Under the pieces are notes generated by a model. It did no database searches. It saw only the letters and a list, made by a program, of their open reading frames with translations, and was not told where the DNA came from. The position numbers were made by a program, and so were the translations under genes. Of a stretch of 64,000 bases of DNA, positions 19,882 through 38,402 are shown piece by piece. Within the stretch, counting starts at the first letter, position 1, and each line of letters begins with the position of its first letter. The stretch comes from Humidesulfovibrio mexicanus (GTDB lineage Bacteria; Desulfobacterota; Desulfovibrionia; Desulfovibrionales; Desulfovibrionaceae): assembly GCF_900188225.1 (NCBI RefSeq), contig NZ_FZOC01000003.1:432653-496652 (forward strand). The letters are read 5' to 3'.

Positions 19882-19932
19882 GCTCTTGCACAGGGCCGGG
19901 TCGCGGAACTGGTCGAGAAGGTCGCGGCTCAC
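19882..19932 (-). pseudogene. Probable hypD remnant (first codons only)
   Basis: A GTG start overlaps the hypC stop as GTGA, the coupling usual for hypC-hypD. The first residues (SRDLLDQFRDPALCKS) resemble the N-terminus of HypD proteins, where an FRDP-like motif follows the first few residues. After about 17 codons the similarity stops: the following residues are Pro/Cys-rich without HypD motifs such as MEVCGTH or GPGCPVC, and the frame runs into the antisense of the neighbouring gene. I read this as a truncated hypD; chance similarity over so short a stretch cannot be excluded. Confidence 0.45.
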
Positions 19933-20222
19933 TGGCGGTCATCCTTGGCGTCGGCGACCGCGCCGCAGGCCGTTTCGGGAGCGGCCGGGGGTGCGGGCGC
20001 GGCGCACGCGTCCTCGCGCAGCATACGCAGGGATTCCCTCGCTTCCGCAAAATCCATGACGCGCAGAGCGAATCCGGCGTGTATGATGAGGAAGTCGCCA
20101 ATGGCGGGGTCTTCGGTCAGAAGCATTGTGGACGCCCGGATGGTGGACTGGCTGTCGCCCAAACGGCAGGTGGCCACGCCGTCATGCAGGTGCAGTATTT
20201 CAGCGGGTATGGCGAGACACAT
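19929..20222 (-). CDS. HypC/HupF-family hydrogenase assembly chaperone
   Basis: A 97-residue protein beginning MCLAIPAEILHLHDGVATC, the invariant HypC start with the essential Cys2 that, in [NiFe]-hydrogenase maturation, contacts the Fe(CN)2CO unit and the large subunit. The body (IGDFLIIHAGFALRVMDFAEA) matches the beta-barrel and final helix of the family. It has an Ala/Pro-rich tail. It ends the operon carrying the hydrogenase-large-subunit homologue, 77 bases after the nitrogenase-like gene, with GGAGG before the ATG. A dedicated HypC for that large subunit is the simplest reading. Its usual partner HypD is present only as a remnant. Confidence 0.9.
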   Translation of the reverse strand: MCLAIPAEILHLHDGVATCRLGDSQSTIRASTMLLTEDPAIGDFLIIHAGFALRVMDFAEARESLRMLREDACAAPAPPAAPETACGAVADAKDDRQ

Positions 20223-20299
20223 GGGGAATCCTCCTCGGTTGGCGCTGGCCGCGCAGGCCGTGCCGCCCTGTTGTACGATGTCCGTCCGGCCCTGCGCCG

Positions 20300-21508
20300 C
20301 TATGCGGAGGCGAACAAGCGCCCGGCAAGATACGCATGGCCTTTTTCCACGGCGTACTCGTACGGCAAATTCCAGTTGAGCCGCGCGCTCATGGCGATGT
20401 GCGGCATGGGGATGAACCGGACCGGCCGCGTCAGCAGGGCCTTGTAACAGGGATCGGCGACGATGCAGTCCACGGACGGGTCGTTCATGAGCGCAGCCGT
20501 TTCGTGTTCGCCATCCGTACAAACATCGGCCTGGCCGCGCTCCGCCAGGGCCGCCAAGCGGCCTTCCGCAGGCGCGAACACAGCTGCGTCGGGCGTCACC
20601 GAGACAACGTCCACACGGGGAATGCCGAAGTCGTGGCGCAGGCAGCGCTGGATTCCATAGCTCATCACTGGCTCGCCGATGACCAAAGCGTGTTTGAAGG
20701 GCGCGGGCCTGGCTGGCGCGGGCGGGGTTGGAAGCGGCTCCCGGCGCAGCAGGGTCAGCATGTCGTCCCGGCCCCGCAGTCCCACGGGCATCCCCACCAC
20801 GTAGGGAATGCCGAAGGTGGCGTACATGTGGTCCGCCAGGGCCAGCCCGCTGGTGGAGACCACCACGTTGAGCTCCGCGCTGGGAGCGTTGCGCAGGGAC
20901 TCCAGGGGGTCCTCCTGCCCGGGCCGGGGCACGGAGAACACGCTCACCAGCGGAAAGCCCGCCTGCTCAATGGCCTGGAGCACCGGCTCGATGTGCTCCT
21001 CCCTGCCCGTGGACAGGTGGATCGCCCCAAGAACGTTGACGCCGTTTTTGACCTTGCGCTCCGGCGTGCGCATGAGCTTGCGCGCCAGGGCCAGGAAGGC
21101 CTTGGACGCCCCCTCGGGATAGGGTTCGGACCCGGCTGTGGGCACCATGAACACGGGCAGGCTGGTGCGCGATTCCAGGGTGCGGGAGAAGCCCCGCAAG
21201 TCCGTGCCGATGATCTCGGAGATGGGCGTGCCCGCCAGGGCCACGAAACGCCGGTCCAGCTGCGTGGACACCTCGGCGATGTTGTTGATGAATGTGCTGT
21301 CGTTGCCCAGAATGACATCCATTTCCAGCAGCCCGGCCCCGACCACTGTGGCCGGGCCACGGTACCAGCGCGGCTCGTCCTCGATGTTGATGTGCCAGGC
21401 CCCGCCAGCGGGACCGTAGACCACCACCAGGCCGTCGAAGGCGTACAGCGCGGAGCTGACCCCGAAGTAGCCCGTGGCCAGGGGGAGAAGCTTGTGATAT
21501 GTCTTCAT
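20300..21508 (-). CDS. Nitrogenase component 1-like protein (NifK/NifN-like), cysteine-poor
   Basis: A 402-residue protein of the nitrogenase/oxidoreductase component 1 superfamily. Visible features are the N-terminal ATGYFGVSSALYAFDGLVVVYGP, which occupies the position of the superfamily GPxGC segment but ends GPAGGAW without cysteine, the ILGNDSTFINNIAEV strand-helix where component 1 proteins usually have the third cluster cysteine, and C-terminal segments such as VADPCYKALLTRPVRFIPM. Cysteines occur only in the last third. It therefore lacks the P-cluster-type ligands and would contribute few or none to a shared cluster, unlike its upstream neighbour. ATG at 21508 has AAGGA eight bases before it. 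It is probably the second half of a heterodimer with the product at 21579-22877. Confidence 0.75.
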   Translation of the reverse strand: MKTYHKLLPLATGYFGVSSALYAFDGLVVVYGPAGGAWHINIEDEPRWYRGPATVVGAGLLEMDVILGNDSTFINNIAEVSTQLDRRFVALAGTPISEIIGTDLRGFSRTLESRTSLPVFMVPTAGSEPYPEGASKAFLALARKLMRTPERKVKNGVNVLGAIHLSTGREEHIEPVLQAIEQAGFPLVSVFSVPRPGQEDPLESLRNAPSAELNVVVSTSGLALADHMYATFGIPYVVGMPVGLRGRDDMLTLLRREPLPTPPAPARPAPFKHALVIGEPVMSYGIQRCLRHDFGIPRVDVVSVTPDAAVFAPAEGRLAALAERGQADVCTDGEHETAALMNDPSVDCIVADPCYKALLTRPVRFIPMPHIAMSARLNWNLPYEYAVEKGHAYLAGRLFASA

Positions 21509-21578
21509 GTTTCGTTTCCTTGAACTGTTGTGGACCAAGACGCCGAAACGCTTGGTTGTGCTATTGTCGCCGCGCGTC

Positions 21579-22877
21579 CTAGATCAGGAAGTTGTGCGTG
21601 TAGATCCAGTCAGCGTTGCTGACGGGATTTTCAAGGGCTTCGCGGGTTTGCTCCAGCATCCACAAGGTGTTTTCGTAGCCGTGCTTCTGCTCCTGATAGC
21701 GCGACAGCGGCACGTTGGCCGCTCTAGCGCAGAAGATGCCCGCGTCCACGCCGTAGGCCACGTCGATGTGATCGAAGGGGGCGGTCTCGCCGCACATGCT
21801 GGGATGGGAGACGTTGCAGGCCCGGATGTGCGGTGCGGTCTCGCGCAGGCGCTCGATGATCCGCCATTCATAGGGGGTGAAGGTGCCGCGCGCGAAGACC
21901 GTGTCCACGTTCAGGCCAAAATCCACCAGCGCCGAGGCCAGCTCCCAGGGGCTGCCGTTGATGCTGCAGCCCACGGCCAGGGTCTTGTCCTTGAGCCTCG
22001 CGACCAGCGGCGCGGCGGCCGTTTTCGCGGCCGTTGCAAAGGCTTCGGTGTCAAGCTTGCGCCCCACTGCGGCGGCGATTTTTTCGTATTGTCCAGCAAT
22101 GGCGTCAAGGCCGTATGCCGTTGGCACGAAGGCCGAGGGTATGCCCAGGCCTTTTTCCATGCGCCCGGCAAGCCCGTTGGCCAGCGGGTGCAGCACCAGC
22201 GAGGACGCGGCGCCCGCCATGAGCGCGAACTGCTCCAGGTCGGCGCAGAGCGGAATTTGATGGATGCGCCTGATTCCCGCGCCCCTGAGCGCCTGGTACA
22301 GCTCGCCGGAATCCGACAGGGGCATGAATGTGCCCAGGATGTTCACGGCCTCCGGGTCCGGTTGGCTCGACTCGCGCTTGAGGAAGTCGTAGAACGAGGT
22401 GTAGGCCGAGGTGAAGGGCGACTCCTTGAGCCCGATGGTGATGGGGGCCATGGCGCCGAGGATGATGCGCCGCCCGGTGTCCTTCTCCAGCCGCTCGATG
22501 ACGCCGGTGAAGTCCGTGCCCAGAATGTAGTCCGGACAGCCCACAATGAGGAAGATGACCTTTTCCGGCCGCCGGGACGCGATGTCGCGGATGCCTTTTT
22601 CCACCTTCTCCAAGTGCCTGCCCATGGTCATGTCGATTTCGGGCGTGCAGAGCATGTAGAAGCGGTCGGTAAACCCGCGCGCGTGCGCCATGAACGCCGA
22701 ATGCCGCAAACAGGCCGACGGCCCGGCCATGATGCACAGGGACTGCGGCAGCAGCAGGCAGGTCTCGATGACGCCCCAGCCCGCGAGGTTGGGGCCAACG
22801 CCTTCCAGTCGCGCGAAGGGGAAGTCCTCCTTGCGCTTCAGGTTTTCAATTTTGATGCTGGCACTGTCCACACGCAT
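21579..22877 (-). CDS. Nitrogenase component 1-like protein (NifD/NifE-like)
   Basis: A 432-residue component 1 superfamily protein. Two of the three usual bridging-cluster cysteines are visible: Cys56 in MAGPSACLRH (the GPxxC motif) and Cys114 in VGCPDYILGTD. The position expected for the first, about 25 residues before Cys56, is Leu31; Cys40, Cys48 or Cys77 might substitute. It lacks the C-terminal Cys/His pair of NifD that binds FeMo-co. NifD/NifE/BchN/CfbD relatives form heterodimers reduced by a NifH-type ATPase, and that ATPase gene lies immediately upstream, overlapping by 32 bases, so a two-component ATP-driven reductase or cofactor scaffold is implied. The substrate is unknown. AGGAGAAG precedes the ATG. 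Confidence 0.82.
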   Translation of the reverse strand: MRVDSASIKIENLKRKEDFPFARLEGVGPNLAGWGVIETCLLLPQSLCIMAGPSACLRHSAFMAHARGFTDRFYMLCTPEIDMTMGRHLEKVEKGIRDIASRRPEKVIFLIVGCPDYILGTDFTGVIERLEKDTGRRIILGAMAPITIGLKESPFTSAYTSFYDFLKRESSQPDPEAVNILGTFMPLSDSGELYQALRGAGIRRIHQIPLCADLEQFALMAGAASSLVLHPLANGLAGRMEKGLGIPSAFVPTAYGLDAIAGQYEKIAAAVGRKLDTEAFATAAKTAAAPLVARLKDKTLAVGCSINGSPWELASALVDFGLNVDTVFARGTFTPYEWRIIERLRETAPHIRACNVSHPSMCGETAPFDHIDVAYGVDAGIFCARAANVPLSRYQEQKHGYENTLWMLEQTREALENPVSNADWIYTHNFLI

Positions 22878-23673
22878 GGCGCTTCTCCTGCTTGGTGTCG
22901 CTGATTGGGGCCGCGCCGCGCTCCTGGGCGAAGGCGGCCACGGTCCGGGCCAGGTCGAAGAAACAGGCCGAGGTGGGCAGGCCGGGATCGCCTTCGACTA
23001 TGGTTTTCCCCTGCTCCTCGAAGGTGTGGATGGCCCGGTCGCGGGGGATGACGCCGATGATGGTCGTCTCCATCTCCTTGGCGAAGTCCTGCACACGCTC
23101 CACCTCGTCGGGCATGTCGCGCCGGTTGAGGATGAGCCCGCCCAGCTCCGCGTAGTGGCGGTCGGCGAAGTTGCGCAGGGCCAGGATGATGTTCCTGGCC
23201 GCGAGCAGGGCCATTTTTTCGCCGGAGGTGACGATGAACACCTTGTCGGCGAAGCCTTCGCGCATGGGCACGGCGATGCCGCCGCAGACGATATCCGCCA
23301 GGATGTCGTAGAACACGATGTCCGGCGCATACTTGGCGTAGGCGTCCATCTCGTCCAGCAGCTCAAAGGCCGTGAGCATACCCCGGCCAAAGCAGCCGAT
23401 GCCCGGCGTGGGCCCGCCGACCTCCATGCAGGTGGTTCCGCCAAAACCCTTGCGGACAACGGCGTCCAGGTCGTCCGGCCTGCCGTTTTCCTGAAGATAC
23501 TGCAATATTGGCGGCGGCATCTGTCCGCCCAGCAGGTTGATGGTGGAGTCGCTCTTGGGGTCGCACCCGATCTGCATGACCTTGTGGCCATGCACGGCGA
23601 GGGCCGCCGAGATGCCGGAGGTCACGGTGGATTTGCCGATGCCGCCTTTTCCGTAAATCGCGATCTTAATCAA
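22846..23673 (-). CDS. NifH-like ATP-dependent reductase protein
   Basis: A 275-residue iron protein of the NifH/BchL/CfbC family. All working parts are present: P-loop GKGGIGKS at residues 8-15, switch I DPKSDST at 38-44, cluster ligands Cys94 (GIGCFGRG) and Cys130 (DIVCGG), and Arg97, the ADP-ribosylation position of NifH. It should form a homodimer with a bridging [4Fe-4S] cluster that passes electrons to the two component 1-like proteins encoded next. The start is a TTG with GGGGAGGA four bases upstream; no in-frame ATG fits. It overlaps the end of the radical SAM gene by 8 bases and the next gene by 32. A short His/Cys-rich tail (HACGQCQHQN) ends the protein. Confidence 0.9.
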   Translation of the reverse strand: MIKIAIYGKGGIGKSTVTSGISAALAVHGHKVMQIGCDPKSDSTINLLGGQMPPPILQYLQENGRPDDLDAVVRKGFGGTTCMEVGGPTPGIGCFGRGMLTAFELLDEMDAYAKYAPDIVFYDILADIVCGGIAVPMREGFADKVFIVTSGEKMALLAARNIILALRNFADRHYAELGGLILNRRDMPDEVERVQDFAKEMETTIIGVIPRDRAIHTFEEQGKTIVEGDPGLPTSACFFDLARTVAAFAQERGAAPISDTKQEKRHACGQCQHQN

Positions 23674-24685
23674 AACGTCCTCCCCGCATCTTGAGTGAGT
23701 CCCCTTTTCCCGCTGCAACGTTCCGTCCGGCGCGCCGCAACACCTGCCTGGCCTCGTCTACGGAAACGTAGCGTTTCCTCGTAGTTATCTGAAATTCGTA
23801 TTCAACCTTGTCTGTCTTGCTTTTCAGGAACGGATTGCAATTGGGCATGATGACGTTGGCCCCGCCCTGCGTGAAGGCGCGGTACTGGCCGTCCTCGGGC
23901 ATCAGGGTGGCCACGGTGTTTGCCGCGGCCAAGTGCGTGTTTTGGGTCACAATCCGCGCCAGGGCGAAGACCCGGAGCATGAGTTCCACGTCCGCGGGCG
24001 GGTGGTCGCGCAGGGGCGTGTCCGCATGGGGGATGAACGGGCCGATGTTGACCATGTCGGGCTGGAAGGACTGGAAGAACTCGATGTCCAGCGCGAGGTC
24101 CTCCAGGGTCTGGCCGGGCAGGCCGACAATGTTGCCTACGCCCACCTGGTAGCCCAGCTTTCGCAGCAAGTTGATGCAGCGTAGCCTGTCCGCCAGTTTC
24201 AAACCGGGCCGCATGACGGCATACAGTTCCGGGTTCATGGTCTCGTGCTTCATCAAGTACCGGCTGGCCCCGGCCTCCTTGAAGGCGCGCATGTCGGCCT
24301 CGGGCCGTTCGCCCAGGCTTAGGGTGATGGCGACATCGGCCTTGTCGAGAATGCGTCGAATGATGGAGCAGAGCATGTCCCGCGTGTAGTGGTAGTCCTC
24401 GCCGCTTTGCAGCACCACGGTGCCAAGGCCCGCCTCGGCAATGGAAAGCGCAGTCTGCACGATCTGGTCCTCGCTCATGCGGAAGCGCTTGGCCTTGTCG
24501 TTCTGTTTGCACAGGCCGCAGTACAGATCCTGGCGGCAACAATAGTTGGAAAAATGGACAACGCCGCGCAACTGCGCCGTGTCGCCGCAGTGTTCCTGGC
24601 GCACACGGTCGGCCTCGCGGAACAGGGTGTCCTGGTGTTGCGCGCCACGCAGGGCGGCAAGGATTTCTGCTCTCTCCATGGGCAT
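23666..24685 (-). CDS. Radical SAM protein, HmdB/HydE-like with CX5CX2C motif
   Basis: A 339-residue radical SAM enzyme of the BioB/HydE/PylB/HmdB clan. The cluster loop reads FSNYCCRQDLYCGLC: Cys50, Cys56 and Cys59 give CX5CX2C rather than the usual CX3CX2C (the middle cysteine of HydE is Asp53). CX5CX2C is the signature of HmdB (HcgA), the radical SAM enzyme of [Fe]-hydrogenase guanylylpyridinol-cofactor synthesis. Other clan features are VLQSGEDYHYT, ITLSLGERPEADM, SRYLMKHETMNPELY and VGNIVGLPGQTLEDLALDI. The C-terminal region matches the BioB-like barrel end. It lies 54 bases after the hydrogenase-like gene and is coupled to the NifH-like gene. HydE itself is the alternative; the cysteine spacing argues against a standard HydE. 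ATG at 24685 has CCGGAGA upstream. Confidence 0.85.
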   Translation of the reverse strand: MPMERAEILAALRGAQHQDTLFREADRVRQEHCGDTAQLRGVVHFSNYCCRQDLYCGLCKQNDKAKRFRMSEDQIVQTALSIAEAGLGTVVLQSGEDYHYTRDMLCSIIRRILDKADVAITLSLGERPEADMRAFKEAGASRYLMKHETMNPELYAVMRPGLKLADRLRCINLLRKLGYQVGVGNIVGLPGQTLEDLALDIEFFQSFQPDMVNIGPFIPHADTPLRDHPPADVELMLRVFALARIVTQNTHLAAANTVATLMPEDGQYRAFTQGGANVIMPNCNPFLKSKTDKVEYEFQITTRKRYVSVDEARQVLRRAGRNVAAGKGDSLKMRGGRFD

Positions 24686-24739
24686 GTCGTCTCCGGGGCT
24701 ATGGCGCTGCGGCACAGGCGGCACGCCGCAACGGTTTGT

Positions 24740-26383
24740 TCATTTGGCTCGCACCGTCACGGTCTTTCCCGCATCGTCGTCTTCAAGCCGGATCACACAG
24801 GCGTTGCAGGGGTCGAAGGCGTGCACGGCCCGCAGGATCTCCAACGGATGCGCGCTGTCCGCCACGGGTGTGGCGGCCAATGCCCGCTCCAGCGGGCTTG
24901 GGGTCCCATCGGCGCTGCGCGGCGAAAAGTTCCACAATGACGGAATAAGGTAGTCGTGCTCGACGATGCGGCCATTTTCCAGGCGCACGCGGTGGGCCAG
25001 CGCGCCCCTGCCGATTTCCGCCAGGCCCACGCCCTCGCCGGAGTGCGGCAGGCTCCAGGGCGTCTGAACCGGGGCCTTGCCGCCGCCGAGCAGCGCATCC
25101 AGGGAATCCAGCCACCCAAGGGCCGCCTTGGCGACGCTGGCGGCCTCCAGCGCCCTGGCGAGCATTCTGCCAACGGTGGAGTCCAAGGATTGCGGGGACA
25201 GCCCGGCCTGGCGCAAGGCACGGTCCATCTCGTCGCGTACGGCCCTGCCGCCTTTGGCGTACGCGACGAGCATCCTGGACAACGGTCCGGCCTCGCAAGC
25301 CCGGCCCGCGTACCTGGGAACAGCGAACCAGTGGAAACCGTCGTTGGTCCAGCGGTATTCCGGCTCACCAGAGCCGAAGCGCAATCGGTACCGGCTGGCG
25401 TCGGCGTCGGCCCAGGCGGGTTCCTGTTCCACGCGCACCTGGTTCCATTGCGCCGCTTGGGCAGACAGCCCTTGGTCCAGGGCGACCACGCCGCCAGGCA
25501 GAAGCGCCTCGCCCCGTTCCCCGGCGGGAAAATCGCCCCAGGACAGGAATGCGCCGCTTCGACCGAGGTCGGCCTCGTGGCGGTACAGCCGGGCCACGAG
25601 CACCGCATCCGGCAGAAAGACGTTTCGGATGAATTCCGCGCTTTGGCGCAACAGCGCCGCGCAGCCGTTGCGCGCCTCCGGCGAGAGGTCCGGGCCGTCC
25701 GCCGCCTTGGACAGGCCGCCGATCTGATAGGCCGGGTGCCCCGGCCCGGTACATCGCAGCAGCTTCCGGGCCTCGGCCAGCTTGGCGCGTATGTCCAGCG
25801 CGGCCTGGCTGTGGCTGAACACCAGCAGGTGGTGTTCCGGGCCGCCCGCATAGGCCGGATGGTCCCAATGCTCGACCGCGAAGAATGCGCCGCCCTCGCC
25901 CTGGGCCAAGGCGGTCAAGCGTTGGAGCGCCTCGCTGGAGAAGGCGGCCCGCCCCTGGTCCGGGCGCGGGCAGGAGCACTCCGCCAGCTTCGCCGTTTTT
26001 CCGGCGTCGGCGCGCAGGGCGCGGCCCAGGTTCAGCCAGTCGGAGAGGGAGAAGTGGTAGAAGTGTGTCAGATGGTCGGAGAGCAGTTGCAGGCCTTGCG
26101 CCAGATTGCGCACCAGCCGCGCGGCTTCCGGGATTTGAACGTCGGCGAGGTTTTCCACCGCGCGCGCCGCGGCCAGGGCGTGCCCGTCGTTGCAGATGCA
26201 GGCGGGACGCTTGGCGAAGCGCGGCGCTTCCCCCTCGGTGGTCGCCCCGAGCAGAAAGTCCATGTTGTGGACCATCTTGCCCGTGCTCCAGGTTTTGGCC
26301 ACACGCCCGCCAGCAAGGCGCGCGCTGATGACGAAGGTGTTCTCCGCGCAGATGATGTCGGGTGGCCGTTGGGGGGTGGTCAT
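24740..26383 (-). CDS. Orphan [NiFe]-hydrogenase large-subunit homologue with altered L1 motif
   Basis: A 547-residue protein clearly of the HupL/HyaB family. Matching segments are Glu14 in the TRIEGH position, GGRVAKTWSTGKMV, HALAAARAVENL, AARLVRNLAQGLQLLSDHL, GRGALAHRVRLENGRI with the conserved Arg, and PSLWNFSPR. The L2 motif is intact as DPCNACVIR (Cys526, Cys529; Arg in place of the more usual His), followed by 15 residues that a maturation protease could remove. The L1 motif is rearranged: instead of RxCGxCxxxH it reads RPACICNDGH, so the first nickel-ligand position is Ala61 and cysteines sit at 62 and 64. No small subunit is encoded nearby. It may carry a different metal centre, or act as a cofactor carrier; activity cannot be read from sequence. 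AAGGAG lies 11 bases before the ATG. Confidence 0.88.
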   Translation of the reverse strand: MTTPQRPPDIICAENTFVISARLAGGRVAKTWSTGKMVHNMDFLLGATTEGEAPRFAKRPACICNDGHALAAARAVENLADVQIPEAARLVRNLAQGLQLLSDHLTHFYHFSLSDWLNLGRALRADAGKTAKLAECSCPRPDQGRAAFSSEALQRLTALAQGEGGAFFAVEHWDHPAYAGGPEHHLLVFSHSQAALDIRAKLAEARKLLRCTGPGHPAYQIGGLSKAADGPDLSPEARNGCAALLRQSAEFIRNVFLPDAVLVARLYRHEADLGRSGAFLSWGDFPAGERGEALLPGGVVALDQGLSAQAAQWNQVRVEQEPAWADADASRYRLRFGSGEPEYRWTNDGFHWFAVPRYAGRACEAGPLSRMLVAYAKGGRAVRDEMDRALRQAGLSPQSLDSTVGRMLARALEAASVAKAALGWLDSLDALLGGGKAPVQTPWSLPHSGEGVGLAEIGRGALAHRVRLENGRIVEHDYLIPSLWNFSPRSADGTPSPLERALAATPVADSAHPLEILRAVHAFDPCNACVIRLEDDDAGKTVTVRAK

Positions 26384-26445
26384 GGCGTGCGCTGCTCCTT
26401 GATCTTTCGGCCGTCCGGGGACGCGCCGTTGTCCATCGCCTGTGT

Positions 26446-27705
26446 TCAGCACCCTGGCGCGGCCTTGCCCATGGCCTGGGCGCGCGCCTCGCAGTAGGCG
26501 GCCCGCGCCGCCGGGAACGGGTCCAGCACGCGCGGCAGCACGCCCTGCACATAGGAGATGGCCAGTCCGTAATTGGTCATGGGCACGCCCTGGCTTTGCG
26601 CCCGGTAGATCCGGGTGAGCATCTGCCTGCGATTGGCCACGCAGGCTGCGCAATGGACGACGAGTGCGTACGGCGTGAGATCCTCGGGGAAATCCTTGCC
26701 CGCCTGATTGGTGATCTGGAGATCCCCGCCGGCGTATTGCCGCAGCCAGCGGGGAATCTTGACCCGGCCGATGTCGTCGGCCAGGGGGTGGTGCGTGCAG
26801 GCCTCGGCGATGAGCACCTTGTCGCCGGGCCGCAGGGCCTCAATGGCGGCGACGCCCCGCGCCAGACTGACCAGATCGCCCTTGAAACGGGCCATGAGGA
26901 TGGAAAACGTGGTGAGGAGGACGTCGGGCGGCGTGTCTCCCGCTGTTTTGAGCACCACCTGGGAGTCGCAGATCACGATCCTCGGCTTGCGGTTCAGCCG
27001 GGCCAGGGCGTCGCGCAGTTCACGCTCCTTGACGACCATGCAGGAGGCGTCGCTGTCCAGTATGTCGCGGATGCTTTGGACCTGGGGCAGGATGAGCCGC
27101 CCCTTGGGAGCGCCCAAATCGATAGGCACCACCAGCACGGCCAGTTCCCCGGCGGGCAGCAGGTCGCCCAAAAGCCGGGGCTCCGCGAACCAGTCCTCCG
27201 GCGTCAGTTCGGCCAGGACTTCCTTGATGCGCCCCAGTCCCCGGCCAAGGGCGGCCGAGGCGGACACGGTTCTGATTCCGGCATTCTCAAGGGCCGCCAG
27301 AGCGTCCGGCGGCGGGGCGGAGAGGTCATCCTTGTTGAAAACCACGGCAAAAGGGATCTTGCGTTCGCCCATGAGCGCCGCCAGTCCCGCTTCGTATTCG
27401 CCCCAGGCCTCCGGCCCCGCCACAAGCAGGGCGATGTCGGTGCGGTCCAGAACCTTGAGCGCGCGCTCCTTGCGCTGTTCGCCCAATGCGCCTTCGTCGT
27501 CGATTCCGGCCGTGTCTATGAACACCACCGGCCCAAGCGGCGCAAGCTCCAGCGTCTTTTCAACCGGGTCCGTGGTGGTGCCCGGCGTCTGGGAGACGAT
27601 GGCCACCTGCTGTCCGGTCAGCGCGTTCAGCAGCGAGGACTTGCCAACGTTGCGGCGGCCGTAGAGGCCGATATGCAGCCTGAGTCCCTTGGGCGTTTCG
27701 TTCAT
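26446..27705 (-). CDS. hydF: HydF-type [FeFe]-hydrogenase maturation GTPase
   Basis: A 419-residue protein with the full HydF plan. The GTPase domain has GRRNVGKSS at residues 16-24, a TPGTTTDP switch, DTAGIDD and NKDD. A dimerisation domain follows, then the C-terminal cluster-binding domain with ligands Cys303 and His305 (CTH) and His351, Cys352 and Cys355 (HCAAC), as in canonical HydF (CxH...HCxxC). In [FeFe] maturation HydF is the scaffold on which the 2Fe subcluster is completed before transfer to HydA. Here it stands with an HmdB-like rather than HydE-like enzyme and without HydG or HydA in the window, so its client may be different. The start follows AAAGGA at 11 bases. Confidence 0.92.
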   Translation of the reverse strand: MNETPKGLRLHIGLYGRRNVGKSSLLNALTGQQVAIVSQTPGTTTDPVEKTLELAPLGPVVFIDTAGIDDEGALGEQRKERALKVLDRTDIALLVAGPEAWGEYEAGLAALMGERKIPFAVVFNKDDLSAPPPDALAALENAGIRTVSASAALGRGLGRIKEVLAELTPEDWFAEPRLLGDLLPAGELAVLVVPIDLGAPKGRLILPQVQSIRDILDSDASCMVVKERELRDALARLNRKPRIVICDSQVVLKTAGDTPPDVLLTTFSILMARFKGDLVSLARGVAAIEALRPGDKVLIAEACTHHPLADDIGRVKIPRWLRQYAGGDLQITNQAGKDFPEDLTPYALVVHCAACVANRRQMLTRIYRAQSQGVPMTNYGLAISYVQGVLPRVLDPFPAARAAYCEARAQAMGKAAPGC

Positions 27706-27814
27706 GTCCTGCGCTGTCCTTTGTTCCGCGCGCCCTGCGGCGGCTGTTGTCGGCCTTGTTGCATTGCCCCCTCCCGGTGCGGGAAAGGACCGTCGTTTCC
27801 GCATCTTGGATGCG

Positions 27815-29254
27815 TCAACGGTGTCCCAGGCTGGTCATGCTCTCCACCGAGAGCAGCCGGTCCAGCTCGGGCTGGTCCAGCAGCCCTCGCGACAGAACAA
27901 CCTCGCGCACGGTGCGGCCGGATTGTTGGGCCTCGGCAGCGACGGCTCCTGCCTCGGCATAGCCCAGGCGCGGCACCAGCGCCGTGACCACGGCCAGGGA
28001 GCGCTCCAGGTGCGCGGCGCAGACGTCGCGGTCGGCCTGCAGGCCGCGCACGCAGCGGCGGGCGAAGATGCGGTTGGCCTGGATGAGCAGGCTGAGGCTG
28101 GAGAGCAGGTTCTCGGCCAAGAGCGGCAGAAAGGCGTTCAGCTCCAGCTGGCCGGACTGTGCGGAAAGGGTCACGGCCATATCGTTGGCCATGGCCTGGA
28201 TGGCGGCCTGGGCCACGGCTTCGCAGATCACCGGGTTGACCTTGCCGGGCATGAGGCTGGACCCGGCCTGCACCGCGGGAAGCAACACCTCTCCGAACCC
28301 CGCGCGCGGCCCGGACCCAAGCAGGCGCAGGTCCGATGAAATTTTGAACAGGTTCACCGCGTGGGCCTTGAGGATGCCGGAGACCTCCACAAAGACATCG
28401 GCGTTCTGGGTGGCGTCCACCAGGTTCTCGGCCCTGGACAGGCCCAGGCCCGTGATCTCGCGCAGGCGTTCCACGACCAGGAATATGTATTCCCTTGGCG
28501 CGGTTACCCCTGTTCCAACGGCTGTCCCCCCCAGGTTCACCACGCGCAGGCGCTCCTCGCACTTGAACACACGCCAACGGTCTCGCGAGAGGCATTCGGC
28601 CCAGGCGGAACACTCCGCGCCCAGGCTTATGGGCACAGCGTCCTGCAGCTGGGTGCGGCCGACCTTGAGCACATCGCAAAATCGCTTCTCGCAGTCCTGG
28701 AACGCCCCCTGGAGCTCGGCGATGGCCTGCTCCAGCTCCCGCAGCAGACCGATCGCCGCAACCTTGACCGCCGTGGGGTACACATCGTTGGTGGACTGGT
28801 GCAGGTTGACGTGGCCGAGCGGTTCAATCCGCGCGCAACCGCCTTCGCCGCCGCCCAGGAGTTCCTCGGCGCGGTTGGCCAGCACCTCGTTCAGGTTCAT
28901 GTTGGTGGAGGTCCCTGCGCCGCCCTGCAGCGCATCGACCACGATTTCCTCGCGCAGGTTCCCGGCGATCAGCTCCTCGCAGGCGCGGGTGATGGCCTGG
29001 GCTATCGGGGCGGGCACATGGCCCAACTCGGCGTTGGTGCGGGCGCAGGCCAGTTTGACCTGCGCCAGGGCCACGATGAGTTCGGGCCGGGGCGGACGGC
29101 CGGTCAGGGGAAAATTCTCCAGGGCCCGGGCCGTGTGGATGCCCCAATAGGCCGTGGTCGGCACCGTTCTTTCACCGAGCGCATCGCGCTCCAGGCGCGT
29201 TTCACGGGAAGGCCCGGCAGCGTCCTCGTCGTTCACGTTCTCACGTGCGATCAT
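27815..29254 (-). CDS. aspA: Aspartate ammonia-lyase (fumarase/aspartase superfamily)
   Basis: About 479 residues. The signature GSSLMPGKVNP near residue 330 supplies the catalytic Ser loop; HQSTNDVYPTAVK and GGAGTSTNMNLNEVLANRAEE mark the other active-site regions, and GTAVGTG the third. These assign it to aspartase, which splits aspartate to fumarate and ammonia, more than to fumarase C. Family members are homotetramers. aspA genes are a recurrent neighbour of HydE/HydF/HydG genes, plausibly as an ammonia source. It is the first gene of the operon, 109 bases before hydF. The start is uncertain: ATG at 29254 has only a weak GGGAACGG. Confidence 0.88.
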   Translation of the reverse strand: MIARENVNDEDAAGPSRETRLERDALGERTVPTTAYWGIHTARALENFPLTGRPPRPELIVALAQVKLACARTNAELGHVPAPIAQAITRACEELIAGNLREEIVVDALQGGAGTSTNMNLNEVLANRAEELLGGGEGGCARIEPLGHVNLHQSTNDVYPTAVKVAAIGLLRELEQAIAELQGAFQDCEKRFCDVLKVGRTQLQDAVPISLGAECSAWAECLSRDRWRVFKCEERLRVVNLGGTAVGTGVTAPREYIFLVVERLREITGLGLSRAENLVDATQNADVFVEVSGILKAHAVNLFKISSDLRLLGSGPRAGFGEVLLPAVQAGSSLMPGKVNPVICEAVAQAAIQAMANDMAVTLSAQSGQLELNAFLPLLAENLLSSLSLLIQANRIFARRCVRGLQADRDVCAAHLERSLAVVTALVPRLGYAEAGAVAAEAQQSGRTVREVVLSRGLLDQPELDRLLSVESMTSLGHR

Positions 29255-30626: not shown

Positions 30627-31892
30627 CTAGTTCCGCGCGCCCATGGGCAGGCGGCCGATCTTGCGGGCGTAGGCCAGGGCCACAGTACGGTAGACCACGT
30701 GCCCGAGCTTGGACCAGGGCAGGTAAGCCAGCAGCATGAACACGAAGACCAGGTGCAGGTAGTAGGTGGGGTAGGCGAGCATCTTCTGGCCGATGAGGCG
30801 GAAGATCTCGGAACCGATGCCGGTGATGGCGATGCCCCAGATGACGGCGATGAGGTACCAGTCGTACCAGTTGCTGACGCTTTTTGAGGCGTCCAGCGCG
30901 CTGCGACGGCTGGTGAGCTTGGTGAGGCCGATGACCAGGGCCACGGCGCCCGCGTTGGCCAGAAGCTTCACCGGGCTCCACAGGGGCATGGGGGTGTGTC
31001 CGGCCCAGGCGATGAGCCCGGCGAGCCCGCCCTCAAGCCCCAGGATGTGTTGCAGGAACCACGCGCCGAACCAGTGGCCGAAGGCCACGACGCCGGTGAC
31101 GATCATCAGCGCGATGAAGGCGTAGAAGACAAAGAGGTGGCCTTTGACGCGTTCCTTGTCCTTTTCGTCCTCGCCGCAGTTCACGAAGCGGCTGTGCAGC
31201 GCCACCTCGTTCTTGAGGGTGTCGATGAGGCAGGACAGGAAGCTGGGCTCCGGCCCGCGGCCGACAATGTAGGTTTTGGGCGTGGACTTGAAGCTCTTGA
31301 GCAGGTTGGAGATGCCGCCCGCGAAGGCGAAGACCATGAACAGGAACACGGCCCCGAAGATGGGGTCGATGGTGTAGTCGCCGGGGAAGAGGCCGCCGTA
31401 GATGATGGCGCCCTCGGCCGCGACCTTGAGCTCATGGCCGTCCACCACGAAGAGCGGGAAGGCCGTGCCCAGCTTTCCGGCCATGATGGACCAGATGGCC
31501 AGGTAGATGAGGGCCGGAATGGCGAAGAGGATGGGCAGGTACTTGCTGGAGCTCATCCACGTGCCGATGATGCTGGGTTTGGCCAGGTTGCGGTAGGCCA
31601 TGTTGCGCAGGGCGGCCAGCAGGTCGCCCGGCTTGGCTCCGCGCGGGCACAGGTCGGAACAGGTGCCGCAGTTGTGGCACAGCCAAATGTCGATGTCGTT
31701 TAACAGGCGGTCCTTCAAGCCCCACTGCGCCCAGACCATCTCCTTGCGGGGATAGGGGTCGTCGGCCGGGGAAAGGGGGCACGCCACGGAGCAGGTGGCG
31801 CACTGGTAGCACTTCTTGAGCGACTCGCCGCCCACCTGCTGCAGTTCCTGAATGAATTTCAGGTCCGGTTGAACCCTGACGGTGTTCGACAT
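30627..31892 (-). CDS. qmoC: Quinone-interacting membrane-bound oxidoreductase subunit QmoC
   Basis: A 421-residue fusion of an HdrC-like ferredoxin domain and an HdrE-like membrane cytochrome b. Two [4Fe-4S] motifs, CYQCATCSVACP and CHNCGTCSDLCP, lie at residues about 22-33 and 66-77. Six hydrophobic helices follow from about 110 (for example YLPILFAIPALIYLAIW and GHLFVFYAFIALMIVTGVV) with histidines placed to bind heme b. It accepts electrons from menaquinol and passes them through QmoA/B to APS reductase. It starts 13 bases after qmoB with AGGAGG upstream. Confidence 0.95.
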   Translation of the reverse strand: MSNTVRVQPDLKFIQELQQVGGESLKKCYQCATCSVACPLSPADDPYPRKEMVWAQWGLKDRLLNDIDIWLCHNCGTCSDLCPRGAKPGDLLAALRNMAYRNLAKPSIIGTWMSSSKYLPILFAIPALIYLAIWSIMAGKLGTAFPLFVVDGHELKVAAEGAIIYGGLFPGDYTIDPIFGAVFLFMVFAFAGGISNLLKSFKSTPKTYIVGRGPEPSFLSCLIDTLKNEVALHSRFVNCGEDEKDKERVKGHLFVFYAFIALMIVTGVVAFGHWFGAWFLQHILGLEGGLAGLIAWAGHTPMPLWSPVKLLANAGAVALVIGLTKLTSRRSALDASKSVSNWYDWYLIAVIWGIAITGIGSEIFRLIGQKMLAYPTYYLHLVFVFMLLAYLPWSKLGHVVYRTVALAYARKIGRLPMGARN

Positions 31893-31905
31893 GGTTCCAA
31901 ACCTC

Positions 31906-34182
31906 CTAGTAGCCCTTGAACGGGTTGGGCCCGAACTTGGTGATGACTTCGGTCATGAAGCGCTCGATGATCCCCGGCACCTTGTCGTATTCGTCGATGG
32001 AGATCTCGTACTGCTCCACGCGCTCGGACTCCACGCCCAGGCGGCCCAGCGACTCGGCGATGTTGACCTTGCGGCGGCTGCACAGCTCGGAGCCTTTGAC
32101 GAAGTGGCACTGGTAGTCCGGACCGTACTTGCAGCCCAGCATGATCACGCCGTCGATGCCCTTGCTCATGGCGTCGGCGATCCAGATGGCGTTGACCGAG
32201 CCCAGGCAACGCACGGGGATGAACCGCACGAACGGGCTCCAGCTCTTGCCGCGGAAGGCCGCCATGTCGAGGGCGGGGTAGGCGTCGTTCTCGCAGGCCA
32301 GCACAATGACGCGCGGGCCGCCCGCCACCATGTCGTCCGGAACGTAGACTTCCTTGATGGTGGAGCCGATCTGGTCGATGTTGTAGTTGTCGAAGCTGAT
32401 GACGCGCTCGGGGCAGGCGCCCATGCAGGTGCCGCAGCGGCGGCAGCGCGTCGGATTCGGCTTCGGCGTTCCCTTTTCGTCGTCGTCCAGCGCGCCGAAG
32501 GGGCATTCCTCGGTGCAGCGCTTGCACTGGGTGCAGCGCTGGAAGTTGAATACCGGGAAGCTCATGTCGCCGCTTCTGGGGTGCACGGCCATGCCGCGGT
32601 TGGCGGAGCCGATGCACTGCACGGCCTTGAGCACGGCTCCGGCCGCGTCCTCGCGGGCGGTGGCCATGGTCATGGGCTGGCGCACGCAGCCGGCCGCGTA
32701 CACGCCGGTGCGGCGGGTCTCGTAGGGGAAGCAGATATAGTTCGAGTCCGCGAAGCCGTCGAACAGATCCAGATCCGGGAAGCCGGGGCCCTGCCGGTAC
32801 TGGAAGTTCATGGTCGCCTCGTGCGCGGTGACGGGCACCACGGCGGTGGGCAGCACCACAAGGTCGGCCTTGAGCTCGATGTCCGCGCCCAGGAGCGTGT
32901 CCTTGGCCCGGACGAGCACGCCGCCGTCGGAGTCGGCGCTGACGCCGGTGATGCTGGCCTTGGAGAGCATCACCCCGGCCTCGTCCTGCGCGGCCTTGTA
33001 GTAGCGCTCGTTGATGCCGGGCACCATCATGTGGTCGTAGAGCACGTAGGCCATGGCCTGCGGCAGCTTCTCGCGCACGTAGCGGGCGTGCTTCAGGGCC
33101 ACCAGGCTGGTGAGCTCGGAGCTGTAGGCCAGGTGCTTGGCGCTCTCCTTGGAGGGGTACGCCGGGGCTTCGGCCTCGCCTTCGGCGGGGGCGGCCTCGG
33201 CCGGAGCGGCTTCGCCCTCGGCGCAGGGCTCCTCGGCTGGAGCGGCGGCGGTGCACAGGGACACATCGGTCAGGATGGCGACCGAGGCCGGGGCCTTGCC
33301 GTCGCTGGGGCGCTTGATCTCGCCCGCCTTGACCATGGCCTCGAACTCCGCGGCGGTGACCACATTCTTGATCGAGCCGTAGCCCATGGGGGCCAGGTAG
33401 TTCTTGTCGCCCGCCACCCAGCCGGTGGCCAGCACCACGGCGCCGATCTCAAGCTTCTGCTCGCCGCCTGCGTTCAGCGTGGCGGTGTACAGGCCGGGCG
33501 CGCCCTCAAGGGAAACGAGCTCGGCGTTCAGCAGAACCTTGATCTTGGGGCTGGCGGTCACGGCGTCGATGAGCGCGCCGATGCCGGTGTCCTCGGTCTG
33601 GGTGTACGGCGCGGAGAGCGGGAAGGACTTGTACATGGTCGCGGCCTTGCCGCCGAGCACGCCGGCCTTCTCCACCAGGACCACCTCGCGGCCGAGCTTG
33701 GCGGCCTCGATGGCGGCGGTGAGGCCGGTGAAGCCGCCGCCAAGCACCATGATGGTCTGGAAGGTCTCGGGGACCTCGGGCGCGGGGATGCGGCTCTTGG
33801 AGAGCTTCATCATGCCCATGCGCACGTAGTCCTTGGCGATGAGCGGGAGCTGGTTCGGGACCTTGGGGTCTTCCTGGTAGCTCCACACGCAGTGCTCGCG
33901 CAGGTTCACGCGCTCCACCTGCACGGCCGGGCCGAAGTTGAAGATGTCCCATTTGACGCGCGGCGAACAGGCGCAGAGCACCACGCCGTCCAGCCCGTTG
34001 GCGGCGATGTCGGCCTCGATCTCGGCCTTGCCCTCGGGGCTGCAGAGCACGCCGCTCTTCTTCACCACGGGGCAGATGTTGGCCAGCTTGCCTTTCTTCG
34101 CGTAGTCCACCAGCTCGTCCACGTTGAGGGACGTGCCGATGTCGCAGCCTTCACAGATATACACTCCAAGCTTTTCAGCCAT
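31906..34182 (-). CDS. qmoB: QmoB, HdrA/MvhD-like flavoprotein subunit
   Basis: A 758-residue soluble subunit. An HdrA-like FAD domain has GGGFTGLTAAIEAAKLGREV near residue 148. Two ferredoxin motifs are CTQCKRCTEECP and CRRCGTCMGACP near 555 and 585. The last 120 residues are an MvhD/FrhD-like domain (LACENDAYPALDMAAFRGKSW to PGIIERF) that binds a [2Fe-2S] cluster in relatives. It links QmoA and QmoC to APS reductase and is thought to take part in electron confurcation. An Ala/Pro/Glu-rich insertion at about residues 310-345 is unusual. The gene is three bases after qmoA with GGGGAGG before its ATG. Confidence 0.95.
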   Translation of the reverse strand: MAEKLGVYICEGCDIGTSLNVDELVDYAKKGKLANICPVVKKSGVLCSPEGKAEIEADIAANGLDGVVLCACSPRVKWDIFNFGPAVQVERVNLREHCVWSYQEDPKVPNQLPLIAKDYVRMGMMKLSKSRIPAPEVPETFQTIMVLGGGFTGLTAAIEAAKLGREVVLVEKAGVLGGKAATMYKSFPLSAPYTQTEDTGIGALIDAVTASPKIKVLLNAELVSLEGAPGLYTATLNAGGEQKLEIGAVVLATGWVAGDKNYLAPMGYGSIKNVVTAAEFEAMVKAGEIKRPSDGKAPASVAILTDVSLCTAAAPAEEPCAEGEAAPAEAAPAEGEAEAPAYPSKESAKHLAYSSELTSLVALKHARYVREKLPQAMAYVLYDHMMVPGINERYYKAAQDEAGVMLSKASITGVSADSDGGVLVRAKDTLLGADIELKADLVVLPTAVVPVTAHEATMNFQYRQGPGFPDLDLFDGFADSNYICFPYETRRTGVYAAGCVRQPMTMATAREDAAGAVLKAVQCIGSANRGMAVHPRSGDMSFPVFNFQRCTQCKRCTEECPFGALDDDEKGTPKPNPTRCRRCGTCMGACPERVISFDNYNIDQIGSTIKEVYVPDDMVAGGPRVIVLACENDAYPALDMAAFRGKSWSPFVRFIPVRCLGSVNAIWIADAMSKGIDGVIMLGCKYGPDYQCHFVKGSELCSRRKVNIAESLGRLGVESERVEQYEISIDEYDKVPGIIERFMTEVITKFGPNPFKGY
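33151..33252 (-). repeat. Low-complexity Ala/Pro/Glu insertion within qmoB
   Basis: The encoded stretch runs from PAEEPCAEGE through APAEAAPAEGEAEAP. It interrupts the FAD-domain region of QmoB and has a simple GCC/GAG-biased composition, consistent with slippage-driven expansion. It looks like a flexible acidic linker and preserves the reading frame. Confidence 0.6.
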
Positions 34183-34185
34183 GAG

Positions 34186-35433
34186 TTACCTCCCCACCAT
34201 GGTTTGAATGGCTTTCATGGCGGCGCCGGTCCCGGTCTGGGCGGTCTTCATCACGTCCAGGGGCAGCTTGGCGCACCCGGCGGCGATAATCCCCTTGTCT
34301 TCCCCGCCGGTGATGAAGCCGTCTTCGTCAACAGGGACCTGAACGGGAAGCTTGGTCCCGGCACAGCTGGGCTGCATTCCGGTGGCCAGCACCACGAGGT
34401 CGTACTTCTCCTCGCTTTTGATGCCGGTGACCGCGTCCTCCACGGTGACGATGGGGTTCAGCCCTTCGTCCTCCACGATCTTGGCCACCTTGCCCTTGAC
34501 CAGCGACAGCTTGTCGTCGGCCTCCACCTTCTGCTTGAAGTTGTCATAGCGGCCCGGGGTGCGCAGGTCGATGTAGTAGATGGTGACGCGCGCGTCCGGG
34601 TTCTTCTCGCGGATGTAGGTGACGTGCTTGAGGGAGGCCATGCAGCAGATGTAGGAGCAGTAGTTCAGGTGGTTTTCGTCGCGGGAGCCGGCGCACTGCA
34701 CAAAGGCGATGCGCTTGGGCTCGCGGCCGTCGCCGGGGCGCAGGATCTTGCCCGACGTGGGGCCGTTGGGAGCGGCCAGGCGCTCGAACTGCATGTTCGA
34801 CACCACGTTCTTGAGCTTGCCGCCGCCCAGATTGGTGAGCTTCTCCATGTCGTAGGGCTTCCAGCCGGTGGCCCAGACGATGGCGCCCACCTGCAGGTCC
34901 AGGGTCTTCTCGGCGTCGGCTGGCTCAACCGCGCCGTAGGGGCAGGCGGCCTTGATGGCGTCCATTTCGCCGGGTGCGCAGGCGGCGGCGTCCACCACGT
35001 AGCGCTGCGGGAAGGCGAACAGGTGCGTGCGGTAGGCGGTCTTGCGCTCGCAGATGCCGAAGTCGAACTCGCTCTTGACGGTGGTGGTTGCGGCCTTCTC
35101 GCACTCGCCGCACATGGTGCAGTTGGTGTTCACATAGCGCGGGCGGATCTTGATCTTCACGTCAAAGGCGCCGGGGCCGCCTGCAACGCTGACCACATCG
35201 GCCATGGTGAAGAACTTCACCCTGGGGTTGTTCTTGATGCGCTGGAACTGGATCTCCAGGCCGCAGGAGGGCGGGCAGAGCTTTGGGAAATATTGGTTGA
35301 GCTGCGCCACCCGTCCGCCGAGATATGGATTCGTCTCGACGATGTAGACCTCGTGGCCGACTTCCGCGGCCTCGAGGGCGGCGGTGATCCCGGCGAATCC
35401 GCCGCCGACGACGAGAATACTGTTGTTCGACAT
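34186..35433 (-). CDS. qmoA: QmoA, HdrA-like FAD protein
   Basis: A 415-residue flavoprotein of the QmoABC complex. The FAD-binding motif ILVVGGGFAGITAALEA is at residues 6-22, with VYIVETNPYLGGRVAQLNQ after it. A region with several cysteines (CPPSCGLE, NTNCTMCGECEKA) may ligate clusters as in HdrA, and CSYICCMASLKHVTYIRE is a conserved HdrA-type segment. The NAD-like fold GATGMQPS-type end (VVLATGMQPSCAGT) closes the domain. It starts 300 bases after aprA with GGGAGGA upstream, so it may be co-transcribed with aprBA or have its own promoter. Confidence 0.95.
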   Translation of the reverse strand: MSNNSILVVGGGFAGITAALEAAEVGHEVYIVETNPYLGGRVAQLNQYFPKLCPPSCGLEIQFQRIKNNPRVKFFTMADVVSVAGGPGAFDVKIKIRPRYVNTNCTMCGECEKAATTTVKSEFDFGICERKTAYRTHLFAFPQRYVVDAAACAPGEMDAIKAACPYGAVEPADAEKTLDLQVGAIVWATGWKPYDMEKLTNLGGGKLKNVVSNMQFERLAAPNGPTSGKILRPGDGREPKRIAFVQCAGSRDENHLNYCSYICCMASLKHVTYIREKNPDARVTIYYIDLRTPGRYDNFKQKVEADDKLSLVKGKVAKIVEDEGLNPIVTVEDAVTGIKSEEKYDLVVLATGMQPSCAGTKLPVQVPVDEDGFITGGEDKGIIAAGCAKLPLDVMKTAQTGTGAAMKAIQTMVGR

Positions 35434-35733
35434 TCGCTGTCCTCCCTCTGTTGTGTGCCAGGCCGACTGTATTCGCCGTTCTGGGCCGATGGGCTCATCT
35501 GCCTCGGCGTGGGATTTCCCCGTGCCCGCTTGGGGCAAGCCCCGTGAGCGCCCCTTCCGCGGGCCCGCGCATGGCGTCGCCCCCATGCTGGCGGAAATTG
35601 CCCCAGCCGTGAAAATGGCCCGAACCCGGACTGCAACGGACGTTCCAGCACGGGTTCAGACCACTTCCCCGCCTGGGAAGTGTGGCGGCTGCGGGCTTGT
35701 GGCCCGCAGCCGCCGATGTCAACGGTCTATCCC
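35434..35733. other. aprA-qmoA intergenic region with tandem hairpins
   Basis: The 300 bases hold two hairpins just after the aprA stop: GGCGGCTGCGGGC/GCCCGCAGCCGCC (35684-35714, 13 perfect pairs, 5-base loop) and CACTTCCC/GGGAAGTG (35662-35682). Neither has a T-run in the direction of transcription, so they look like mRNA-stabilising or pausing structures rather than full terminators. No clear promoter for qmoA is visible. Confidence 0.65.
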
Positions 35734-37734: not shown

Positions 37735-37815
37735 AGCTACCTCCGTATGCTCTCTCTGGAGTTGATTGATTGAAAACCCTTGCAACTCAAATCAAGCGGA
37801 TGTCCGCCGTCGAAG

Positions 37816-38307
37816 CTAGTCGCAGACGGCGTCGAGCCAGCACTGGCTCTTGTCGGAGTCGGCGAGCTCGAACTTCTTCATGATCGGGCTCTCGGGCAGG
37901 GCCAGAGCGGTCTCGGTGAAGAGCAGCTCGTCGTCCAGGCTGCCGCCCTCGGGCTTGCCGCCGAACGGGTCGATGGAGCCTTCAGGGGTGGTGCGGATGG
38001 GGAACTTGAAACGCTTCACGGAGCCGTTGCGGAACTTGACGGTCCACATGATGTCTTCGGCCGAACGCATGGGGATGGAGGTGCCACCCATGGGGGCGAA
38101 GTCGGCGTAGGGGCGGGCTTCAATGGCGCCCTGGGGGCAGATTTTCACGCAAGAGTAACATTCCCAGCACGCGTCAGGCTCCTGGTTGTAGGCCTTCATG
38201 GCCTCGGGATCCAGGATCATCAGGTCGTTCGGGCAAATGTACATGCAGGCGGTCTTCTCGCCACCCTTGCAGCCGTCGCATTTTTCCGGATTGACAAAGG
38301 TCGGCAT
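37816..38307 (-). CDS. aprB: Adenylylsulfate reductase beta subunit
   Basis: A 163-residue ferredoxin-like subunit that passes electrons from its two [4Fe-4S] clusters to the FAD of AprA. CDGCKGGEKTACMYICP at residues 10-26 and CWECYSCVKICP at about 47-58 are the two cluster motifs with the spacing of the family. The extended C-terminal arm (LADSDKSQCWLDAVCD) wraps AprA in known structures. AGGAGGAAG precedes the ATG, the strongest ribosome site of the cluster. It is the first gene of the leftward unit. Confidence 0.98.
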   Translation of the reverse strand: MPTFVNPEKCDGCKGGEKTACMYICPNDLMILDPEAMKAYNQEPDACWECYSCVKICPQGAIEARPYADFAPMGGTSIPMRSAEDIMWTVKFRNGSVKRFKFPIRTTPEGSIDPFGGKPEGGSLDDELLFTETALALPESPIMKKFELADSDKSQCWLDAVCD

Positions 38308-38402
38308 AACACTTCCTCCTAACAGGTTTAAATTAAAGCAGTTACCGACACGATCCACAGCCAACTACGTGCTCGAAATGGGCACGGTCTTGTGAAAACA
38401 GA

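Follow-up and report, generated by a model that had tools for sequence, protein, structure and literature searches.

What an operon that combines parts of [NiFe]- and [FeFe]-hydrogenase maturation with nitrogenase-like proteins might be doing is the question raised by a stretch of 64,000 nucleotides from Humidesulfovibrio mexicanus (contig NZ_FZOC01000003.1, positions 432,653 to 496,652 of the forward strand; this whole stretch is called the window below). In published H-cluster synthesis, the enzyme HydG cleaves tyrosine into CO and CN. Gene content, conservation, genomic linkage, the loss and the relics of HydG and altered residues together indicate that the operon very probably replaces HydG in the assembly of the [2Fe] part of the H-cluster. 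The whole reading, in which this cassette replaces HydG and Fe(CN)2CO made by Hyp proteins would pass via a NifH-like protein and two NifD/K-like proteins (D1 and D2) to a variant HydE and HydF, is held with somewhat less assurance and still appears probable; all of its chemical steps are ones that we infer.

The operon consists of eight genes, all with open frames, which run on the minus strand from 29254 to 19929. In 5′ to 3′ order these are aspA, hydF, a gene for a homologue of the [NiFe]-hydrogenase large subunit (LSU), variant hydE, a nifH-like gene, D1, D2 and hypC, with intergenic gaps of 109, 62, 54, -8, -32, 70 and 77 bases. AspA, an aspartate ammonia-lyase (27815..29254; NF008909, 628 bits, cut-off 510), is followed by the [2Fe] scaffold GTPase HydF, in which both HydF domains are present (26446..27705; TIGR03918, 545.9 bits, cut-off 325.6) and which is placed in a HydF tree among HydFs of HydG-bearing genomes. 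The next two genes encode the degenerate LSU (24740..26383; PF00374, 352.9 bits) and the variant HydE (23666..24685; TIGR03956, 263.5 bits, cut-off 254.6). A predicted NifH-like ATP-dependent reductase with a TTG start (22846..23673; PF00142, 265 bits) precedes the NifD/E-like D1 (21579..22877; PF00148, 97 bits) and its NifK/BchB-like partner D2 (20300..21508; PF00148, 91.6 bits). The last gene encodes a HypC-family chaperone (19929..20222; TIGR00074, 56.8 bits, cut-off 48), the protein beginning with MCLAIP and thus carrying the N-terminal Cys2. A promoter/terminator scan found no promoter-like sites and 7 terminator-like sites versus 9.0 expected. The open frames and gaps bear out the leftward eight-gene unit with close or overlapping spacing that had been described in an earlier note on this DNA, and the profiles agree with the identities given there for AspA, HydF, the large-subunit homologue, the NifH-like, the two NifD/K-like proteins and HypC.

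HydA, correctly reported before as absent from the window, is present elsewhere in the host genome (G000; 100% complete, 15 contigs), which encodes a single HydA-type protein (G000:C3:383647-384510; PF02906, 311.7 bits). Its motifs read TSCCPGW, MPCIAKKYE and EIMTCPGGCVNGGG, which we take to be the L1-L3 motifs of HydA. The frame after it resembles, by eye, the small Tat subunit HydB, and the host [FeFe]-hydrogenase is of the periplasmic type. No HydG was found in the whole of this genome, the sole match being the variant HydE itself (37 bits), so that the absence of HydG noted for the window holds across the entire genome.

The same 150 Desulfovibrionales genomes were profiled for D1, HydG, HydA, HydF and HydE. 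HydG exceeded its cut-off in 56 of them (52 at 425-921 bits), HydA was found in 69, HydF was over its cut-off in 63 and HydE in 57, with three more HydEs just under it (247-253 bits). Nine genomes contain a true D1 (at least 688 bits) and one, G062, a distant form (196 bits); HydA accompanies D1 in 9/9 genomes, against 69/150 in the background (p = 7e-4). HydA, HydE and HydF occur together in 59 genomes, three of them with HydE just below the cut-off. Not included in these 59 are four genomes with HydF and no HydA (G066, G038, G023 and G145, of which G066 has HydG) and ten with HydA that lack HydE, HydF, D1 and a HydG of at least 400 bits. This threshold of 400 bits was applied to HydG as the curated TIGR03955 cut-off also takes in a paralogue of genus g2 (316-334 bits). 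HydG is missing in eight of the 59 genomes: G000, G049, G053, G100, G114 and G121, which all have D1, as well as G062 and G105. Thus, HydG is missing in 6/9 genomes with D1 versus 2/50 without it (Fisher p = 4.7e-5), and D1 is present in 6/8 HydG-less versus 3/51 HydG-bearing genomes. With the plain TIGR03955 cut-off G062 counts as HydG-bearing (table [3,6],[49,1]; p = 1.2e-5), and adding eight HydG-less genomes that were reached through D1, and hence chosen for it, gives p = 7.5e-10. The association between D1 and HydG is strong as a count; after correction for descent it is consistent, not significant. That HydG was present and merely missed was rejected, as the same search recovers the 52 high-scoring HydGs, and an assembly gap is unlikely in G049 and G100, since both are single contigs.

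Remnants of HydG were found in place. In G128 the genes are arranged in the order HydA-HydB-TM1266-HydG-aspA-hydE-hydF. Its neighbour in the HydF tree, G100 (a single contig), has the same order with HydG reduced to an open frame of 50 aa, whose end aligns with the C-terminus of HydG (tblastn E 2e-7) and whose start looks, by eye, like that of HydG. The draft genome G154 contains an internally deleted HydG of 153 aa, in which ~126 N-terminal residues (62% identity, E 2e-44) are followed by the C-terminus. A HydA-aspA-hydF stretch without HydG and without hydE is seen in G121, G114, G153 and G155. G036 exhibits the order HydA-hydF-hydE-aspA-HydG, and in G049 (a single contig from the genus of G036) the locus reads HydA-hydF-aspA, with hydE and HydG gone from it and the cassette 1.8 Mb away. 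HydB and TM1266 were named by eye in all these loci. From the relics and gene orders it follows that the cassette accompanies a loss of HydG that is either isolated (G100, G154) or joined by loss of the ordinary HydE (G049).

Some further proteins of these families were observed. The HydG paralogue of genus g2 (~290-334 bits; e.g., G021, G056, G065) also occurs without HydA and HydF (G021 and G056 are without HydA). HydA-type proteins without HydE, HydF, D1 and HydG of at least 400 bits are present in G111, G074, G106, G107, G127, G148, G149, G048, G061 and G041, the last of which carries a HydG paralogue of 319 bits. Genomes of genus g13 (e.g., G128, G100, G114) encode an additional HydF-like protein that scores 346-361 bits and has a frame of ~500 aa.

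The cassette is not confined to the host. When a collection with one genome for each of 84,980 species was scanned with a D1 pattern, 10 loci emerged (L003-L012, of which L008, L011 and L012 are truncated by the end of their contigs), and variant hydE, the nifH-like gene, D1 and D2 follow each other in that order in 10/10. In the genomes concerned, one of which is G053, HydG is over its cut-off in 0/10 and HydA is present in 9/10; only a draft of 1.5 Mb lacks HydA. Besides Desulfovibrionales and Desulfofervidaceae, two further lineages carry the cassette, which often lies near HydA, HydF, AspA and Hyp genes, and the protein database adds relatives of its proteins from Thermodesulfobium and Lebetimonas. 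Entries for cassette proteins there include P0005, P0044 and P0126 under the name Desulfolutivibrio sulfoxidireducens and P0109 and P0192 under Thermodesulfobium narugense. Among 395 genomes of the phylum, seven contain D1 at E <= 1e-20 (G000, G049, G053, G062, G068, G232 and G264); all seven have HydA, and G232 and G264, the genomes of L009 and L010, are 100% complete. Physical linkage to HydA was found in L004/G053, L006/G153, G114, G121, L009, L010 and, for the distant form, G062. G151 shares its contig with G053, and G151, G232 and G264 are counted twice only in the figures given out of 10. The concern that these genes might be adjacent by chance in a single genome is thereby answered, and the earlier impression that no system of such composition has been described agrees with our search, which found none by title or abstract start among open-licence PMC papers. 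A distant cousin of the cassette is seen in L093 (G062, C40), where HydA-hydE-hydF, with a canonical HydE, is followed by two NifH-D1-D2 sets and HypF, HypC and HypD. In L010 (12513-13165), two small frames between D2 and hypF resemble, by eye, a toxin-antitoxin pair.

The radical SAM protein of the operon had been regarded as HmdB-type, and HydE as absent. Neither statement could be upheld, as this protein scores over the TIGR03956 cut-off for HydE. HmdB was rejected on the basis of TIGR03957 (66.9 bits against a cut-off of 320.9) and of a CX5CX2C spacing that is not kept in relatives. The cluster motif C49-x3-D53-x2-C56 (24518..24541, minus strand) has an Asp in place of the second Cys of the CX3CX2C pattern of HydE, hence the label variant. 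Asp occupies this site in 18/18 cassette HydEs (the position of the first Cys is covered as well in 17 of them) and Cys in 6/6 canonical ones; among the 120 best database relatives 79 have Asp, 38 have Cys and three do not cover the site, with one Cys-bearing relative (P0196) being 57% identical to the window protein. In a tree for which the program issued a long-branch warning and into which two genomes were entered twice, the 18 cassette rows form one clade (SH-aLRT 100) apart from 11 canonical rows from nine genomes. A cassette whose members are all canonical and have their normal client elsewhere, as considered in the earlier note, is therefore not what was found: the variant HydE stands outside the canonical HydEs and only 3/18 distinct cassette genomes have a HydG over the cut-off.

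The nitrogenase-like proteins stay below the family cut-offs listed. The NifH-like protein remains under the cut-offs for nifH (284.6/394), CfbC (279.9/402) and BchL (185.2/345), and likewise below that for BchX. Nitrogenase P-clusters are liganded by three Cys per subunit. D1 contains three invariant Cys (56, 114 and 383) in 70/70 sequences, counted over the whole chain, and D2 none in an alignment of 11, which is not the ligand set of a P-cluster. Predicted models (pLDDT 83.6 for D1 and 80.2 for D2) were used for folds only and not for site geometry. Both appear to adopt the fold of nitrogenase component 1: the D1 model matches nitrogenase, NifEN and methylthio-alkane reductase (Mar) folds (TM by query length 0.58-0.73 among the 50 matches listed), and the D2 model (0.57-0.71) has chain 3aer_D of DPOR as its best fold match. 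An ATP-dependent reduction step, as already suggested in the earlier note, may well be the natural role of this part.

In L009 the cassette is embedded in the order HydA-HydB-TM1266-HypE-HypC-aspA-hydF, then variant hydE, the nifH-like gene, D1, D2, HypF and HypD, with HypE (438 bits), HypC (64), HypF (816) and HypD (440) all over their cut-offs, and in L010 HypF follows D2. A second, cassette-linked HypD occurs in G049, G068, G121, G152, G153, G156 and G062, and a fragment in G150. These cassette HypDs do not form one clade in a tree. HypD is over its cut-off in 18/19 D1-type genomes searched and in four comparison genomes as well, and G062 has a single weak match for a [NiFe]-type large subunit. 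The evidence from the Hyp proteins lies in linkage, not in presence.

LSU matches PF00374 yet lacks the full set of four cofactor Cys, RIEGH segment and processing His that marks a [NiFe] large subunit, and no match to a small subunit was found among the eight operon genes. In an alignment of 13 LSU rows with 15 canonical large subunits, the N-terminal CxxC corresponds to residues 61-64 of the window protein (ACIC; 26192..26203, minus strand), the first Cys being replaced by Ala and the second, Cys64, being kept; the first Cys is lost in 12/13 and the second kept in 13/13. At the C-terminus, DPCNAC (Cys526 and Cys529; 24797..24814, minus strand) retains the CxxC, as do 13/13, the processing-site His is missing in 13/13, and the window protein ends in an acidic tail. 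The RG of the PRG segment is kept in 13/13, and the RIEGH segment is changed in 13/13, with its Glu turned into Gly in 11/13. The Cys residues that bridge Ni and Fe in [NiFe] enzymes are the second ones of the two CxxC pairs, and the Arg lies near the cyanides. Because the bridging Cys pair and the Arg are kept and the first Cys is lost, the iron site looks preserved and the nickel site broken. LSU may thus be a scaffold for an Fe(CN)2CO unit, a proposal drawn from residue patterns to which we would give an even chance. LSU stands upstream of variant hydE in all six loci from Desulfovibrionales (L003-L008, with LSU truncated by the contig end in L008); its presence in L011 and L012 is not judgeable owing to contig ends.

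Based on these findings the following route can be proposed. HypEF would turn carbamoyl phosphate into cyanide and the HypC-HypD pair would assemble the Fe(CN)2CO unit, in line with PMC12130793, where HypCD is described to form Fe(CN)2CO using carbamoyl phosphate as the origin of the cyanide. In Desulfovibrionales, LSU would then hold this unit on its two remaining bridging Cys. The NifH-like protein and D1-D2 would reduce and remodel this unit, or a relative of it, in an ATP-driven manner towards Fe(CO)2(CN), the state that HydG normally delivers; according to PMC11736057, HydG hands [Fe(Cys)(CO)2(CN)] to HydE. The variant HydE would convert the remodelled unit into a dinuclear precursor, which HydF, with ammonium from AspA, would complete and load into HydA. 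That AspA supplies the ammonium for the dithiomethylamine bridge is likely, because an ammonia-lyase is associated with hydF in the same paper, which also describes maturation without HydG and HydE if a synthetic [Fe2(SH)2(CN)2(CO)4] unit is given. The client of the route appears to be HydA and not LSU, on account of the genomic linkage and the loss of HydG. That a Hyp-derived iron unit feeds [2Fe] assembly seems rather likely from the gene neighbourhoods. Nitrogenases reduce both cyanide and CO2, and it is therefore conceivable that one CN is removed or that a second CO is supplied. The least certain points are which unit is held on D1-D2 and how the 2 CN:1 CO of the Hyp unit becomes the 1 CN:2 CO of the HydG product.

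An alternative that retains the replacement of HydG would see the NifH-like protein and D1-D2 as a mere source of ligands, making CO from CO2 or another small molecule, or cyanide, as free ligands with which the variant HydE and HydF would assemble the iron unit, with HypC and LSU as accessory proteins. It is accommodated by the same evidence for HydG replacement, by PMC9431212, which describes that HydF matured with HydE and without HydG activates HydA in vitro and that free CO or CN boosts this, and by PMC12134894, which calls it an open question where the CO comes from in anaerobic [NiFe] maturation. As it leaves unexplained the linked HypC-HypD pairs, the HypE and HypF of L009 and the iron-binding residues retained by LSU, this alternative is considered unlikely compared with a route through the Hyp-made unit.

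Several observations weigh against that route. G068, G089 and G116 have D1 and keep HydG (the cassette nifH of G068 has a frameshift at L100:9278-10041, for which a sequencing error is possible). G105 (L094, L107; a 99% complete genome of 2.2 Mb) contains HydA, HydE (503 bits) and HydF and neither HydG nor D1, which is possibly a third solution to the ligand source or a missing gene; G062, with a distant D1 only and a HydG paralogue of 326 bits, is an ambiguous exception. TIGR03955 matches of 209 bits in G100 and 226 bits in G114 were taken as putative ThiH by their length. The genomes behind L003-L012 come without completeness values. The variant HydE, lacking the canonical radical-SAM Cys, may not perform HydE chemistry, and a second HydE is present in G100, G154 and the three HydG-bearing D1 genomes. 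The mere presence of Hyp proteins proves little, because they are also required by the [NiFe] hydrogenases of D1-containing genomes; G158 shows a HypD fragment only, and the window hypC has no adjoining hypD, unlike in several relatives. The Glu of RIEGH is still present in the LSUs of the window and L003, and LSU is absent from both Desulfofervidaceae loci (L009, L010). Finally, six independent pairs differ in D1 and only 3-4 of them also in HydG, each in the opposite direction (p 0.125-0.25). This small number of informative pairs, together with the three genomes holding both and G105 holding neither, would suit the idea that the cassette serves another pathway and came to accompany HydG loss in a few lineages through common descent or horizontal transfer. 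Nevertheless, we regard this idea as very improbable given the linkage of cassette and HydA at seven loci or genomes, the HydG remnants in place and the HydF tree (including partial rows for G155 and G158), on which the combination of D1 with missing HydG must have changed five times or more along well-supported branches.

The view of the earlier note, that the operon makes an unusual Fe or Ni-Fe centre and inserts it into LSU as the working enzyme, draws on the occurrence of LSU in every cassette of Desulfovibrionales whose sequence was followed that far, on three kept cofactor Cys out of four and on the two remaining RIEGH Glu residues, and it is the most doubtful of all, barely credible in the face of the altered RIEGH segment, the lost Ni-binding Cys and processing His, the lack of LSU in L009 and L010 and a loss of HydG that it does not explain.

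Upstream of the operon the window contains sulfate-reduction genes (30627-38364): QmoC (30627-31892), HdrA-like proteins that are probably QmoB and QmoA (31906-35586), AprA (35734-37785) and AprB (37816-38364).

If the cassette does take the place of HydG, the founding step in the synthesis of the H-cluster, among the most studied organometallic cofactors in biology, would have been exchanged for a non-orthologous one, and [NiFe] and [FeFe] maturation, usually treated as separate, would be connected. Nitrogenase-like enzymes would then take part in Fe-CO/CN chemistry, the still open question of where anaerobes obtain the CO ligand would be affected, and engineered hosts could be made to produce HydA by an alternative route. 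The absence of HydG need not mean that HydA is inactive. We slightly favour the idea of a second H-cluster route, in which a shared Hyp Fe(CN)2CO, nitrogenase-like remodelling, a retired LSU scaffold and an Asp-ligated HydE would make tyrosine and HydG unnecessary.

Compared with known systems, the operon shares single features with several. The window HydE happens to have the CX5CX2C of HmdB from [Fe]-hydrogenase maturation, but its score is far below the HmdB cut-off and the spacing varies among its relatives. DPOR (BchLNB), CfbCD and Mar likewise combine a NifH-like donor with two NifD/K-like chains; the operon proteins differ from these in staying below the listed family cut-offs and in their invariant Cys (three in D1, none in D2), the fold of D2 being nearest to DPOR and that of D1 to nitrogenase, NifEN and Mar. 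With the HypABCDEF pathway it has in common HypC (window), HypC-HypD pairs or HypCDEF (L009) and a large-subunit homologue as the probable acceptor, whereas this acceptor is degenerate here and the linked hydrogenase is of the [FeFe] and not the [NiFe] type. The HydEFG pathway has the same client HydA, the same HydF, AspA beside HydF and a HydE homologue; unlike that pathway, the cassette has no HydG, its HydE is replaced or joined by the Asp-variant, and the NifH-like protein, two NifD/K-like proteins, HypC and LSU are added.

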